DNA from: Flavobacteriales bacterium
GTDB lineage: Bacteria > Bacteroidota > Bacteroidia > Flavobacteriales_G > JALEGO01
Length of the DNA stretch: 40,913 bases
Reading direction: 5' to 3'
NCBI GenBank assembly: GCA_020629755.1
Contig: JAHDCS010000015.1
Location: forward strand, 1-40,913
The notes below the pieces were generated by a model that was given only the letters and a program-made list of their open reading frames with translations, was not told the DNA's origin and did no database searches. The translations under genes were made by a program, and so were the position numbers. Position 1 is the stretch's first letter. The number at the start of each line of letters is the position of its first letter. This document shows positions 21,056 to 40,913 of the stretch, piece after piece.

Positions 21056-21083
21056 CCATATAAACACTTAAATAGTATTCAAA

Positions 21084-21716
21084 ATGATTGGTTGGTTAAA
21101 AAGTTTATTTGGAAAAGCTACTGATGTAGCGGGCAATGTAGCAGAAGGTGTTGGTGATGTAGCAGGTGGCGTTGCGGGTGCTGCTGGAAATGTAGTTTCT
21201 GGTGCTGCAGATGTTGCAGGTAATGTAGTCGATAAGGCTGGCGATGTGGTTTCTGGTGCAGCGGACATGGCTGTAGGAGCAGCTGGAAAAGTTGCTGATG
21301 TAGCAGGAGATGTCGCTTCAGGTGCAGTTGATACCGTTAAAGATGTAGCCTCTGGTGCTGCAGATGTTGCAGGTAATGTAGTCGATAAGGCTGGCGATGT
21401 GGTTTCTGGTGCAGCGGACATGGCTGTAGGAGCAGCTGGAAAAGTTGCTGATGTAGCAGGAGATGTCGCTTCAGGTGCAGTTGATACCGTTAAAGATGTA
21501 GCCTCTGGTGCTGCAGATGTTGCAGGTAATGTAGTCGATAAGGCTGGCGATGTGGTTTCAGGTGCAGCGGATATGGCAGCAGGAGCTGCTGGTAAAGTTG
21601 TAGACGTAGCTGGTGATTTAGCCTCTGGCGCAGTGGATGCAGCAAAAAATGCTGGGGAATCTATTGCAGATAAAGCTTCTGATATTACAGATGCTGCGAA
21701 AGACAAGCTCTCTTAG
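21084..21716 (+). CDS. Amphipathic helical repeat protein, LEA/YtxH-like
   Basis: A 210-residue protein made almost entirely of Ala, Gly, Val, Asp and Ser with few Lys. After a short start (MIGWLKSLFGKATDVAG) it runs as 11-residue units such as DVAGNVVDKAG, DVVSGAADMAV and GAAGKVADVAG. These combine as four 11-mers plus a 7-mer into a 51-residue unit, repeated about three times. Such periodicity (11/3 and 7/2) makes one long amphipathic helix, as in group 3 LEA proteins and similar stress or membrane-surface proteins. There is no signal peptide or true membrane helix, so it is probably cytoplasmic and may bind membranes through its Trp/Leu/Phe start. It has its own strong promoter and terminator. 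The function is inferred from composition only. Confidence 0.75.
   Translation: MIGWLKSLFGKATDVAGNVAEGVGDVAGGVAGAAGNVVSGAADVAGNVVDKAGDVVSGAADMAVGAAGKVADVAGDVASGAVDTVKDVASGAADVAGNVVDKAGDVVSGAADMAVGAAGKVADVAGDVASGAVDTVKDVASGAADVAGNVVDKAGDVVSGAADMAAGAAGKVVDVAGDLASGAVDAAKNAGESIADKASDITDAAKDKLS
21198..21559 (+). repeat. 153-bp exact tandem repeat inside the amphipathic protein gene
   Basis: Copy 1 (21198-21350) and copy 2 (21351-21503) are identical base for base as far as I can compare. Copy 3 matches for its first 56 bases (to 21559) and then diverges while keeping the same protein pattern. The unit is 51 codons, so changes in copy number keep the frame. Confidence 0.95.
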
Positions 21717-25083: not shown

Positions 25084-25600
25084 ACAGTTTAGTAAAATAA
25101 AGGCCATCGTTCTTGATATTGATGGCGTGCTCACCAACTCGCAGGTATTTTTACTGCCTGACGGCACCCAAATGCGCAATATGCATATTAAAGATGGCTA
25201 CGCCATACAATTAGCTGTTAAAAAGGGGTATCACATCGGGATTATCAGTGGCGGATCAAGCGAGGAGTCAAAACAAAGACTCCAAGGACTTGGCGTTGAA
25301 CACATTTATTTAAAAACCCATGACAAACTCGATAAACTCAAAGAACTCATGCATATTTTTCAAGTTCAAGCAGAAGAACTGCTGTACATGGGCGATGACA
25401 TTCCTGATTATGAATGTGTAGATTTTGCGGGAGTAGGTGCCACACCTGAGAATGGCGCTGAGGAAATTAAAAAGATTGCCAATTATATTTCGGCTATTCC
25501 TGGGGGGATGGGTTGCGTGAGGGATGTCATAGAAAAGGTCATGAAAATTCAGGGCAAATGGTTCGATCGTCAAAAGCTTGAAAACGATTTTAAATGGTAG
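25076..25600 (+). CDS. KdsC-like HAD phosphatase
   Basis: A 174-residue HAD-superfamily phosphatase of the C0 (capless) type related to 3-deoxy-D-manno-octulosonate 8-phosphate phosphatase. Motif I is IVLDIDGVLT (Asp14, Asp16); motif II lies in IGIISGGSSEES; motif IV is YMGDDIPDYECV. The tail AIPGGMGCVRDVIEKVM is typical of KdsC. It probably removes phosphate from Kdo-8-phosphate in lipopolysaccharide core synthesis. The start is the ATG at 25076; an open stretch of 16 codons upstream overlaps the previous gene and lacks family similarity. The UbiA gene begins inside its last codons. Confidence 0.87.
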   Translation: MLEQFSKIKAIVLDIDGVLTNSQVFLLPDGTQMRNMHIKDGYAIQLAVKKGYHIGIISGGSSEESKQRLQGLGVEHIYLKTHDKLDKLKELMHIFQVQAEELLYMGDDIPDYECVDFAGVGATPENGAEEIKKIANYISAIPGGMGCVRDVIEKVMKIQGKWFDRQKLENDFKW

Positions 25601-26541
25601 CGTTTTTAAGGCTTGTGCGTTGGCCAAATCTTTTTTTAATGGCTCTAACAATGCTGTTGATGCGCTATTTTATCGTAAAACCAGCACTTGAGTTTCCGGA
25701 TGTAGGGCTTTTGCTTCCATTAAGTCATTTACAATTTTTTGGTTTTGTCTTATCTACTCTATTTTTAGCTGCCTCAGGCTATATTATCAACGATTATTTT
25801 GATTTAAAAATTGATAGAATCAATAAGCCACAAAAAATGATTTTAGGCAGATCTATTTCTAGAAAAAGGGCTATTATATGGCATTGGATATTGACTATTT
25901 TAGGGCTAGCAATTGCTTTTCATTTATGTTATGATCTTAATTTATGGTCACTTTTTTATGTATTTGTATTTGTTTCGGGCGCCTTGTGGTTTTACTCTAC
26001 AAGTATTAAACACATTCCTCTTTTAGGTAATCTATTGATTTCTATTTTAGTTGGCCTGGTGCCTTTAATGATTAGTTTTACCGAACTCTCTTTAGTAAAT
26101 ATTCAACAATCTACACTATTAATTGATTCAGGCTACAGACTAAATGACACGGCTTACCTACTCTTAGGTTTTTCTTTTTTTTCTTTTTGGGTAAATCTTA
26201 TCAGAGAAATCACTAAAGATGTGATTGATATTAAAGGGGATAGTGCCTCAAAGATTAGCACCTTGCCCAATATCACCTCTTTAAAAAACACCAAACTGAT
26301 TTTAATTGCACTACACATTGTCGCTTCTTTTATGCTTACCTATGTGATTCTATATATTCTAAACGATACGATCAGTCGATATTACATCATTTTATGTATT
26401 ATTTTGCCTTTACTTGTTAGTGTTTATTTGACCGCCATTGGAAAAGCTAAAAAAGATTTTGAAATTATATCTTTACTTTTAAAAAGTATTCTTTTTTCAG
26501 GGTTGATGTATGCCTTTGTTTTTTATGTAAACATCACTTAA
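25594..26541 (+). CDS. UbiA-family prenyltransferase
   Basis: A 315-residue membrane prenyltransferase with eight or nine transmembrane helices. The two aspartate-rich motifs that bind Mg-diphosphate are present: N66-D67-YF-D70-LKI-D74 and a second at about 205-216 (REITKDVIDIKGD). The substrate is not certain. The position next to DUF2520, KdsC-like and Maf genes is that of proteins annotated as geranylgeranylglycerol-phosphate geranylgeranyltransferases in Bacteroidota, whereas quinone or haem O synthesis enzymes carry similar motifs. The start (MVAFLRLVRWPNL) fits the family and overlaps the phosphatase stop. Confidence 0.85.
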   Translation: MVAFLRLVRWPNLFLMALTMLLMRYFIVKPALEFPDVGLLLPLSHLQFFGFVLSTLFLAASGYIINDYFDLKIDRINKPQKMILGRSISRKRAIIWHWILTILGLAIAFHLCYDLNLWSLFYVFVFVSGALWFYSTSIKHIPLLGNLLISILVGLVPLMISFTELSLVNIQQSTLLIDSGYRLNDTAYLLLGFSFFSFWVNLIREITKDVIDIKGDSASKISTLPNITSLKNTKLILIALHIVASFMLTYVILYILNDTISRYYIILCIILPLLVSVYLTAIGKAKKDFEIISLLLKSILFSGLMYAFVFYVNIT

Positions 26542-26545
26542 TTAC

Positions 26546-26632
26546 TAGAGCTAAATTGTGATAACATGCCACAAATCTTTATACATAAAAACCAAATTTC
26601 TATTAAACAGCTTATTGTAACATTTTAGCTCT
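26546..26632. repeat. Inverted-repeat element, copy 1
   Basis: This spans almost the whole gap between the UbiA gene and maf. TAGAGCTAAATTGTGATAA (26546-26564) is repeated exactly at 28328-28346. The right end, GTAACATTTTAGCTCT (26617-26632), is an imperfect inverted copy of the left end: 9 bp perfect (AGAGCTAAA/TTTAGCTCT) and 13 of 16 overall. It ends at the base before the maf ATG. Confidence 0.7.
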
Positions 26633-27244
26633 ATGCGTATTTTACAACCACCATTTCTTCAACAGTTCTCTCACACTGATATTGTTTTAGCCTCAGGATC
26701 ACCAAGGCGCAAACAACTTTTAGAAATGGCTGGGTTTAAAATCACAGTATACAAAACTGATGTAGATGAAAGCCATCCACCGCATATTTCAAGTGAAAAT
26801 ATTCCTGAATATTTAGCACAAAAAAAAGCACAAGCTGCCTACAAGCACCATCCTGATGCGTTGATTATTGCGGCAGATACTATTGTATGGCATAACCAAA
26901 CCATATTAGAAAAGCCAGCCGATGCTAAAAGTGCTAAGAAAATGCTTAGTGCTCTAAGCGGACAATCACACAGGGTAATAACAGGCGTTGCCATTGCATT
27001 TAATGATATCCAACATCACTTTTCGACACATACGCAAGTGCTATTTAAAGAATTAGATCCAAGAGAAATAGAGTACTATATTGAAGAGTACCAACCGTTT
27101 GATAAAGCAGGTAGTTATGGTATTCAAGAGTGGATTGGGCTTATTGGCATTGCCTCTATTTCTGGTTGCTATTACAATGTTATGGGGCTTCCGGTAAGCG
27201 CTTTAATCAATGCATTAAAAACGCAGTCATTCTTTTCTAAATGA
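26633..27244 (+). CDS. maf: Maf-family nucleotide pyrophosphatase
   Basis: A 203-residue Maf/Ham1-fold protein. The signature IVLASGSPRRKQLLEMAGF is at about 17-35; IIAADTIVWHNQTILEKP and the tail DKAGSYGIQEW...YYNVMGLPV also match the family. Members hydrolyse dTTP, UTP and modified nucleoside triphosphates to monophosphates and prevent their incorporation. The N-terminal extension (MRILQPPFLQQFSHTD) is slightly long but common in this phylum. It overlaps the next gene by 4 bp (ATGA). Confidence 0.92.
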   Translation: MRILQPPFLQQFSHTDIVLASGSPRRKQLLEMAGFKITVYKTDVDESHPPHISSENIPEYLAQKKAQAAYKHHPDALIIAADTIVWHNQTILEKPADAKSAKKMLSALSGQSHRVITGVAIAFNDIQHHFSTHTQVLFKELDPREIEYYIEEYQPFDKAGSYGIQEWIGLIGIASISGCYYNVMGLPVSALINALKTQSFFSK

Positions 27245-28269
27245 AAAAAGTTGTAATCAAAAAGCCTGGTGGGTTTAATACACTAAAACTCATCTCCTGC
27301 AATTCAGAAATATTAAAAAAACATCAGTGTAGAATTAAAGTCAAATATGCGGGCGTAAATTTTGCAGATACTGCTGTAAGGCAAGGGCTTTATGCTTCAG
27401 CTAAAGCCCTTGGCTTTCCGATCACCCCTGGATTTGAAGTAAGTGGTTCAATCATTGAAATTGGTACTGAAATAAAAAAATTTAAAGTTGGTGACAAAGT
27501 ATGGGGCATTACAAAATTCGGAGGCTATACTTCAGAGATATGCTTAGATGAACAATTCATTTTTAAAACCCCTGATCATTTATCTTGTGCTGAAATAGCC
27601 AGCATCCCGACCATTTTTTTAACGGCTTACCACGCTCTTTTTCAAAATGTAATTGTTAGACCTAACATGACTGTTTTAGTCCACTCCGCTTCAGGTGGCG
27701 TTGGCACCGCTCTTTTACAATTGCTTAACATTATTGGCTGTACAAGTATTGGCATTGTTGGCGGCGATCATAAAGTTGCTATGGCCAAAGAAAACGGAGC
27801 CAAGTACGTAATCAATCGAAAAACGGAAGACCTTTGGAAAAGAACCAAGGAGATCTGCCCTGAAGGGTTTGATATCATTTTAGATGCCGTTGGTCCAGAC
27901 ACACTAAAAAAAGGATACGCACAACTTAAACCCACTGGCAAAATGATTTCTTACGGATTTGCCTCTATGATGGATCCAAATACCTCATTTACCAACTGGT
28001 TTAAACTTATTATAGGATTTCTAAAAATCCCAAGATTTAATCCTCTAAATATGGTAAGTGAAAATAAAAGTATCGTGTGTTTTAACTTAAGTTTTCTTTT
28101 TGATAGACAAGATTTAATTCAACAAGGTGCTAATGCTATTCAAAAATGGCTTACTGAAAGAAAAATATCTGCTCCAAAAATCAGCATTTATAAAGCTGAA
28201 GATGTGTCTGAAGCACATCGAGATATAGAATCTGGAAAAACTACCGGAAAACTATTGCTTGAGTTTTAG
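27241..28269 (+). CDS. Zinc-free medium-chain dehydrogenase, quinone-oxidoreductase/VAT1-like
   Basis: A 342-residue MDR-superfamily protein. It has an N-terminal GroES-like domain (KYAGVNFADTAVRQGLY, then TPGFEVSGSIIEIG) and an NADPH-binding Rossmann domain (VLVHSASGGVGTALLQLLNI). No structural or catalytic zinc ligands are visible, as expected for quinone oxidoreductases and VAT1-type proteins. It probably reduces a carbonyl or quinone with NADPH in the cytoplasm; the substrate is unknown. The start overlaps the maf stop codon. Confidence 0.85.
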   Translation: MKKVVIKKPGGFNTLKLISCNSEILKKHQCRIKVKYAGVNFADTAVRQGLYASAKALGFPITPGFEVSGSIIEIGTEIKKFKVGDKVWGITKFGGYTSEICLDEQFIFKTPDHLSCAEIASIPTIFLTAYHALFQNVIVRPNMTVLVHSASGGVGTALLQLLNIIGCTSIGIVGGDHKVAMAKENGAKYVINRKTEDLWKRTKEICPEGFDIILDAVGPDTLKKGYAQLKPTGKMISYGFASMMDPNTSFTNWFKLIIGFLKIPRFNPLNMVSENKSIVCFNLSFLFDRQDLIQQGANAIQKWLTERKISAPKISIYKAEDVSEAHRDIESGKTTGKLLLEF

Positions 28270-28301
28270 AGCCAAACACTCTTTGTTTTGGCTATCTAAA
28301 A
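28264..28301 (+). terminator. Hairpin at the end of the oxidoreductase gene
   Basis: TTTTAGAGCCAAA pairs with TTTGGC(TA)TCTAAAA through 13 base pairs with a two-base bulge and a 10-nt loop. The stop codon of the gene lies in the left arm. No T run follows, so termination is inferred from position between converging genes. Confidence 0.45.
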
Positions 28302-28311
28302 GGATACCCTA

Positions 28312-28365
28312 TAGAGCTTTTTTGTGATAGAGCTAAATTGTGATAAAACGTCACATAGCTCTAGT
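28312..28365. repeat. Inverted-repeat element, copy 2, with tandem units
   Basis: Two 16-bp units stand head to tail: TAGAGCTTTTTTGTGA (28312-28327) and TAGAGCTAAATTGTGA (28328-28343). An inverted arm, TCACATAGCTCT, follows. The stretch 28328-28346 is identical to 26546-26564. AGAGCTA/TAGCTCT and TGTGA/TCACA can form a hairpin with a 7-nt loop and a 3-nt bulge. It lies between the converging oxidoreductase and dnaN genes, where it may also help end transcription. Confidence 0.7.
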
Positions 28366-28372
28366 CTCTCTT

Positions 28373-29500
28373 TTAATTATTACTAAGCATCACTGGCATA
28401 ACCAACATCAATAGATCATCATCTTTATCTATTTTTTCTGCTGGTAAAATGATACCCGCTCTATTAGGTGCTGACATTTCAATATTGACCTGCTCTGTTG
28501 TAATATTTTGAAGCATCTCTAATAAGAAACGAGAGTTAAAGCCTATTTCCATGTCATCGCCATTGTAATTACAAGTGAGCCTTTCATTGGCTTCGTTTTG
28601 AAAATCTACATCTTCAGCAGAAATGCTTAATTCACTGCCATTTACTTTAAAACGAACCTGATGGGTAGTTTTATTTGAAAAAATAGAAACTCTTTTAATA
28701 GAATTTAAAAGGCTTGTTCTGTCAATGGTTAGTTTGTAGGGGTTTTCTTTAGGAATAACGGCATCATAATTTGGGTATTTTCCGTCAATTAATCGACACT
28801 TTAAAGAATAGTTTTCAAAGCTAAAGTGTGCATTAGCAGCGTTAAATTCTAAGGTGACAGATGTATCTAAATTAGATAAAATATTCTTTAAAAGCTGCAG
28901 TGGTTTTTTAGGCAAAACAAGTTGAGCGGCTTTTGTTGATTTAATGTCGCTGCGCGTATGTTTAACAAGTTTATGGGCATCCGTTGCCACAAACGTTACC
29001 TCAGATTTATTCAACTCAAACAATACTCCAGACATGATACGCCTTAATTCGTCATTGCCTGCAGCAAAGATGGTTTTATTAATGGCATTAGAAAGTGTGA
29101 TGGCATCCATCTCAACTTTAGACACATCCTCTAAAACTGGAGGTTTGGTAAAATCTTCTCCTTTTTGACCCGCTAATTTATATTTTCCGCTGTCTGAAAT
29201 AATCTCTATCGCTAATGTTTTGTCATCAATTTCAAAGGTTAATGGTTGTTCAGCAAAGGTCTTTAACGTATCAATCAAAAGTTTAGCCGGAATAGCTACT
29301 TTACTATCTCCCTCAATAAGCTCTAAAGCTAAATCACAAGACACAGTGGTTTCAAGATCTGAGGCGGTCACTGTTAAAGTTTTTTCTTTAAACTCGAATA
29401 AAAAACATTCCAGGATGGGCAATGTAGGATTTGAGATGATAACACCGCTTAAAGACTGTAGGCTTTTAAGTAAACTAGAACTTGATACAATAAATTTCAT
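28373..29500 (-). CDS. dnaN: DNA polymerase III beta subunit (sliding clamp)
   Basis: A 375-residue protein with three clamp domains, each about 120 residues. It starts MKFIVSSSSLLKSLQSLSGV and contains LPILECFLFEF, FVATDAHKLVKH and IDGKYPNYDAVIPKENP. The end LLMLVMPVMLSNN is typical for Bacteroidota. It forms the ring that holds DNA polymerase on the template. It lies downstream of gldFG, as in other flavobacteria, but has its own -7 element in the 155-bp gap. No replication origin or DnaA boxes are visible near it. Confidence 0.95.
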   Translation of the reverse strand: MKFIVSSSSLLKSLQSLSGVIISNPTLPILECFLFEFKEKTLTVTASDLETTVSCDLALELIEGDSKVAIPAKLLIDTLKTFAEQPLTFEIDDKTLAIEIISDSGKYKLAGQKGEDFTKPPVLEDVSKVEMDAITLSNAINKTIFAAGNDELRRIMSGVLFELNKSEVTFVATDAHKLVKHTRSDIKSTKAAQLVLPKKPLQLLKNILSNLDTSVTLEFNAANAHFSFENYSLKCRLIDGKYPNYDAVIPKENPYKLTIDRTSLLNSIKRVSIFSNKTTHQVRFKVNGSELSISAEDVDFQNEANERLTCNYNGDDMEIGFNSRFLLEMLQNITTEQVNIEMSAPNRAGIILPAEKIDKDDDLLMLVMPVMLSNN

Positions 29501-40850: not shown

Positions 40851-40913
40851 CTAATTGGAGTTACCCCGTTTTTCATTAGAAAACCTTTCATAAACCTCAT
40901 TATCATTGAATTT
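40851..40913 (-). CDS. C-terminal end of an upstream gene (partial), possibly gyrA
   Basis: From the window edge, one minus-strand frame stays open for 20 codons (ending YERFSNEKRGNSN) before a TAG at 40853-40851. The polar, charged ending is typical of the disordered tail of a cytoplasmic protein. The identity cannot be read from 20 residues. gyrA is suggested only because a TPR gene of this type often follows gyrA in flavobacteria. Confidence 0.35.
   Translation of the reverse strand, partial: KFNDNEVYERFSNEKRGNSN

Follow-up and report, generated by a model that had tools for sequence, protein, structure and literature searches.

Introduction

The closest described systems to the element reported here are the ERIC, Correia/NEMIS, and RUP families of bacterial repeats, each of which is shorter than 200 bp, palindromic, non-autonomous, and bounded by TA termini (PMC2229807). 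ERIC, IRU, and RU-1 are described as non-coding, mostly intergenic elements with TA termini whose transcript forms one long stem-loop (PMC2229807), and a length of 127 bp is given for ERIC (PMC2759123). Correia/NEMIS elements of Neisseria come in two main sizes, 107 and 155 bp, that differ by an internal 50-bp stretch, carry terminal inverted repeats (TIRs) of 24 bp with TA termini, and have been studied by comparing filled with empty sites. The 107-bp RUP of Streptococcus pneumoniae uses a TA target, and IS630-Spn1 is believed to mobilize it in trans (PMC2229807). QMITE1 and QMITE2 of Coxiella burnetii are species-level MITEs whose overlap with the 3′ ends of functional genes can be as short as 1-2 bp (PMC5896051).

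The stretch of DNA analyzed here, 40,913 nt long and called the window throughout, is contig C32 of a 2.36-Mb genome assembled in 92 contigs. An earlier note on this DNA had reported an exact 19-bp repeat in the two gaps that flank a maf/oxidoreductase gene pair, and had offered as its origin a small mobile element (MITE or REP-like), a structured regulatory site, or an old insertion of the gene pair itself. We conclude, with a probability of roughly 0.93, that both window copies are deleted derivatives of one TA-targeting, non-autonomous, and apparently species-confined MITE family.

Results

The 19-mer, TAGAGCTAAATTGTGATAA, occurs exactly at 26546-26564 and 28328-28346, just as the earlier note had placed it, and when up to three mismatches are allowed the window holds 3 matches against 0.03 expected by chance. 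The third is a near-match on the minus strand and corresponds to the inverted arm of copy 1 (Table 1). Copy 1 occupies 87 nt of the 91-nt gap between the UbiA-type gene and maf, with its final A doubling as the A of the maf ATG, and it aligns to positions 1-50 and about 117-163 of a 163-bp full-length element (see below), with further small deletions. The inverted arm that had been described as closing this unit at the maf start codon is indeed there, but the unit measures 88 bp with both TAs, not 87. Copy 2 consists of the left 28 bp of the element fused to its right 8 bp, and its assignment to the family is based on 92% identity across only 36 bp (BLAST). It had been described as preceded by a tandem unit and followed by a compact arm; both are present, although the preceding unit is partial and the copy ends at 28363, not at 28365. 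This partial unit may be what is left of a copy into which copy 2 inserted. A T-rich stretch follows copy 2, and the end of dnaN is 9 nt away. The TGTG...CACA pairing seen in both copies is real as well: TGTGA...TCACA belongs to the left end of the full element (TTGTGATAAAACGTCACAA), and the differing loop bases are ordinary variation between family copies. Elsewhere in the window, three tandem 153-bp repeats lie at 21128-21651, inside an ORF at 21084-21716; over these repeats the opposite strand likewise has an ORF of about this length (21068-21706), and either strand may code.

Table 1. Coordinates of the window features and of the other two-ended copies with a given size (window positions unless a contig is named)
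Feature	Position	Strand	Description
UbiA-type prenyltransferase	25594..26541	+	Upstream of copy 1; family matches below curated cut-offs
MITE copy 1	26546..26633	+	88 bp; internally deleted, slightly decayed; TA at both ends
Copy 1, left TIR	26546..26564	+	The 19-mer of the earlier note
Copy 1, right TIR	26615..26633	-	3 mismatches; terminal TA gives the A of the maf start codon
maf, Maf family nucleotide pyrophosphatase	26633..27244	+	TIGR00172 above cut-off
Quinone-oxidoreductase-like (PIG3-type) gene	27241..28269	+	Below curated cut-off
Partial end of a further copy	28312..28329	+	TAGAGCTTTTTTGTGATA; 3 mismatches to 17-mer; abuts copy 2, TA common to both
MITE copy 2	28328..28363	+	36-bp minimal derivative; predicted hairpin
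dnaN	28373..29500	-	TIGR00663 above cut-off; convergent to oxidoreductase gene
Full-length copy	C42:111583		163 bp
Full-length copy	C44:91		163 bp
Full-length copy	C91:8439		163 bp
Full-length copy	C84:54567		163 bp
Full-length copy	C49:2264		163 bp
Full-length copy	C87:4472		163 bp
Shortened two-ended copy	C83		79 bp
Shortened two-ended copy	C44:2516		71 bp
Shortened two-ended copy	C49:20610		39 bp

The genome-wide search that the earlier note had proposed for the 19-mer was strongly positive. Its 17-mer core has 45 matches in the genome at up to three mismatches, against 9 for a reversed-pattern control, and the full element gives 41 BLAST matches at E ≤ 1, both strands counted. Intact elements are non-coding imperfect palindromes of 163 bp, and the six copies of exactly this length differ pairwise at 0-17 of the 163 positions, with a mean column identity of 97%; the C84 and C91 copies are identical despite their different loci. 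In the C42 copy, whose whole length is palindromic, the first 21 bases match the last 21 perfectly and thus form a perfect 21-bp TIR. No transposase gene lies inside the 163-bp element, the longest open stretch of which is about 50 codons. Of two other long copies, C73:129 is without its right end and C45:6248 stops at an apparent contig end. One-ended fragments are also present alongside the shortened two-ended forms, and C46 holds a doubtful 23-bp remnant.

All 11 of the two-ended copies, as delimited by eye, have TA at both ends. The C91 element sits inside a second repeat, of which C43 carries a copy without the element. Removing the element from C91 and keeping one TA between its flanks gives a sequence that aligns to C43 across the junction with a score of 210, compared with a best score of 72 in 200 random controls; the homology covers about 40 nt to the left of the junction, with small gaps, and about 95 nt to the right. 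On C18, a fragment of the element begins at a TA that lies within a further copy of this second repeat. The filled site in C91 and its empty counterpart in C43, taken with the TA ends and the C18 fragment, therefore show that the element inserts at a single TA and duplicates it. The MITE option of the earlier note was correct, in that a dispersed family with terminal inverted repeats and TA insertion is what the genome contains.

The second repeat is itself a family, with units of about 306 bp and ends TGGAGTTACCCC...GGGGTAACTCCA. One end of it lies at window 40856-40913, running off the contig end, and its last 128 bases give 31 BLAST matches in the genome, short ones included and several of them at contig ends. 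A shorter variant is found in C43, and the 163-bp element has jumped into the members on C91 and C18. On C73 (L018:106-129), a short perfect palindrome, AGGGTCTTGACTAGTCAAGACCCT, stands beside the copy that is deleted at its right end and is followed by the second repeat. The string AGAAACTGTTTA, possibly the end of another repeat, recurs near copies of the element or of the second repeat in L013 (C40), L024/L040 (C18), and L145 (C11).

Given a TA target and a G as the first base of the element, an insertion into TAA or TAG leaves a TAG stop, and one into TATG leaves an ATG in place. Because this rule remakes the codons, copies can directly abut genes and leave them intact, as where copy 1 supplies the A of the maf ATG. 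An end falls in a stop codon in 4/11 two-ended copies (C49:2264, C83, C84, and C49:20610); the one-ended C75 copy, left out of this count, does so too. Stop codons would be expected to take 16.5% of permissible TA sites, and with P = 0.09 for 4/11, or 0.12 for 4/12 when the C46 remnant is counted, we do not claim a preference for them. In our reading, the placement at stop and start codons follows from the target rule, given that the genome is compact and AT-rich.

G001, the only genome of the same genus among the relatives compared, gives no match to the element at E ≤ 0.01. We compared 11 loci of our genome with it; both neighbors are adjacent there in 5/11, the remaining 6 gave no test, and UbiA/maf was compared separately. 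The queE/lon pair was left out of the clean empty sites, since our genome has only the doubtful 23-bp remnant there, as was a response-regulator/lipoprotein pair, whose 348-nt gap here is larger than the element, and four clean empty sites, UbiA/maf included, stand after these exclusions. The UbiA and maf genes overlap in G001 (TGATG), whereas nearly all of the 91 nt between them here is the 88-bp element. The relA and fur genes overlap there, and here a 74-nt gap contains a 71-bp element. A glycosyltransferase and a TonB-like gene overlap by 50 nt in G001 and are separated here by a 163-bp element, within which a TGA now serves as the glycosyltransferase stop. For a hydrolase/DUF1343-like pair, the gap is 25 nt in G001 versus 173 nt here with a 163-bp element. 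Apart from maf, the gene names in these pairs are our reading of sequence resemblance. In the gene that we presume by resemblance to be lon (L025, around 1651), an apparent premature TAA occurs near the 3′ end, about 42 codons before the G001 stop.

These comparisons also bear on the suggestion that the maf/oxidoreductase pair entered this locus as one unit, with the direct repeats left to mark its two edges. Two identical 19-mers do flank the pair, and the oxidoreductase gene is not beside maf in G001. However, maf directly follows UbiA in G001 too, overlapping it and without a repeat, which refutes an old insertion of the pair as far as maf is concerned. Each window copy also has its own inverted arm, and no repeat is found at the maf-oxidoreductase junction, where the two genes overlap by 4 nt. 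The 19-mer forms the end of an element family dispersed in the genome, and its two occurrences in the window are two members of that family, not the borders of one insertion; a block insertion is very improbable. Of the two gaps that the earlier note had singled out for comparison in relatives, UbiA-maf is thus empty in G001, while the oxidoreductase-dnaN gap is not comparable, as maf and dnaN have other neighbors there and lie on different contigs.

Where both neighbors of a two-ended copy are known, 7/10 copies lie between convergent genes, 3/10 between same-strand genes, and 0/10 between divergent genes. C44:91, whose left neighbor was not determined, all one-ended fragments, and the doubtful 23-bp remnant on C46 were set aside for this count; the remnant lies between convergent genes and would bring the count to 8/11. 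As a background we took 274 kb of the same genome, with genes called by a simple ORF rule; convergent pairs make up 15.6% of its 224 gene pairs, and convergent gaps hold 12.2% of its permissible TA sites. The excess at 7/10 has P of about 2e-4 against the gene-pair share and 3e-5 against the TA share, for a comparison chosen after seeing the data. The one-ended fragments C75, C40, C42:105258, and C73:5534 are all between same-strand genes (0/4 convergent), and when they are added the count is 7/14 (P = 0.003 and 0.0006, respectively), which is weaker and still an excess. The absence from divergent gaps is not significant (0/10, P 0.05 to 0.19). The median convergent gap in the genome is 10 nt. 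Insertions probably survive where they are least harmful, and the simplest reading is that those near promoters or inside operons tend toward loss or decay.

A full-length copy folds with z = -9.8 relative to shuffles, copy 1 with z = -2.9, and the copy 2 region with z = -2.3. The folding of the window copies, the location of copy 2 between convergent genes ahead of a T-rich stretch, and the 7/10 classifiable two-ended copies in convergent gaps would all suit structured RNA or DNA regulatory sites (terminators, attenuators, or protein-binding sites) that are common to both gaps and kept by selection. On the other hand, the covariance check that the earlier note had called for gave compensatory change in 0/56 predicted pairs across six full copies, whose similarity lends this comparison low power, and 9 of the pairs are broken in one copy each. 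Rfam returned nothing above the gathering score, only chance-level matches below it, and a simple terminator scan, which allows only uninterrupted stems with short loops, listed no terminator at either window copy. The UbiA-maf junction of G001 is gapless, and the three other element sites are overlapping or spaced by 25 nt there; the size range of 36 to 163 bp likewise speaks against one conserved site. The regulatory option has gained no positive support, and we consider it quite unlikely, with no evidence for a regulatory role or for selection on RNA structure. A related idea is that the family has been co-opted to insulate convergent genes from each other's transcription, its copies serving as portable, bidirectional insulators with a two-way terminator role. 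If this were true, the palindrome would shrink to a hairpin of 36-40 bp, kept at gene ends, that blocks read-through and antisense transcription both ways in a genome nearly without intergenic space. We regard this co-option as unlikely; its odds are lowered because the one-ended fragments are all between same-strand genes.

The search for a mobilizing enzyme covered several transposase types. In our genome, the IS630 profile PF13358 (DDE_3) has no match, and NF033545 (IS630) has three weak matches, the best at 20 bits against a cut-off of 100; this best match, on C65, falls in an ORF that we read as an AAA ATPase with a terminal helix-turn-helix, not a transposase. The Y1_Tnp domain of RAYT (PF01797) is likewise absent from the genome at E ≤ 0.01, with a control search positive in E. 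coli. REP elements are short hairpins with a tetranucleotide guide, and REP/BIME-like palindromes moved by a RAYT (Y1) transposase would also be small, palindromic, and intergenic, as the window copies are, and could abut as the two units at copy 2 do. However, no Y1 transposase domain was found in the genome, and TA duplication, long terminal inverted repeats, and a 163-bp unit make up the pattern of a MITE, so that the REP-like option of the earlier note is unsupported and, in our judgment, hardly credible.

Returning to a MITE, no pair of facing element ends 0.5-3 kb apart is present among the listed 17-mer genome matches. One DDE_Tnp_1 (IS4-type) fragment lies at the start of contig C24; as a partner it was rejected, as the nearest match to the family end (4 mismatches of 19) is inside the transposase reading frame and is not an element end. 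IS630-type loci of other genomes showed no close family end either, the nearest matches having 6 mismatches of 19 in G017 and G003 and 5 of 19 in G005. No autonomous partner with matching ends was found in the 92-contig assembly, which breaks at repeats; the transposase gene may be gone, or it may be hidden in a repeat that collapsed where a contig ends. Judging from the TA target only, an IS630/Tc1-mariner-type enzyme is most likely, as our best guess; a 2-bp TA duplication has also been reported for some non-IS630 families.

We next consider where else the element occurs. A complete copy is present in 0/59 relatives; in 3/59 there is a single weak partial match of 26-44 nt (E 7e-4 to 9e-3), which we attribute to chance. 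An exact 21-mer was found once in genome_contigs, in Clostridium muellerianum, and was judged to be chance too; an exact 18-mer has no match in viral_contigs, and plasmids and phages give no match to the element. We found no description of this MITE family in the literature by title or abstract.

Discussion

We propose that a transposase supplied in trans would recognize the ~21-bp terminal inverted repeat, insert the element at a TA, and duplicate that TA. Deletions inside the palindrome would then shrink the inserted copies, giving the observed sizes of 88, 79, 71, 39, and 36 bp, presumably through replication slippage. Two-ended copies would survive mainly between convergent genes, as their distribution indicates, if a selective sieve favors the places where a transcribed hairpin is least disruptive. 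Our results describe a MITE family that has been active recently and appears restricted to one species, in a compact Bacteroidota genome; a single assembly shows sites with and without the element as well as a graded set of deletion forms. The family is a clean example of how TA-targeting elements whose first base is G can land on stop and start codons and leave them undamaged; it is otherwise ordinary genome biology.

This is a new family of known architecture, of the ERIC/Correia/RUP kind. It resembles Correia/NEMIS in its TA termini, in discrete sizes that differ by internal stretches, and in the comparison of filled with empty sites, and we take the sequences of the two to be unrelated. 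ERIC differs in having a TIR given as 7 bp (PMC2229807), against a perfect repeat of ~21 bp here. Its sequence is unrelated, as judged by name and size only, and it belongs to enterobacteria, whereas the present family is in a different phylum (Bacteroidota, as inferred from GldG). RUP has a presumed IS630 partner, whereas none was found for the present family in the assembly. QMITE1 and QMITE2 differ in that their direct repeats are variable in sequence (2-3 nt for QMITE1 and 7-11 nt for QMITE2; PMC5896051), in contrast to the TA used here; like the family described here, they are species-level MITEs that overlap with the ends of genes.
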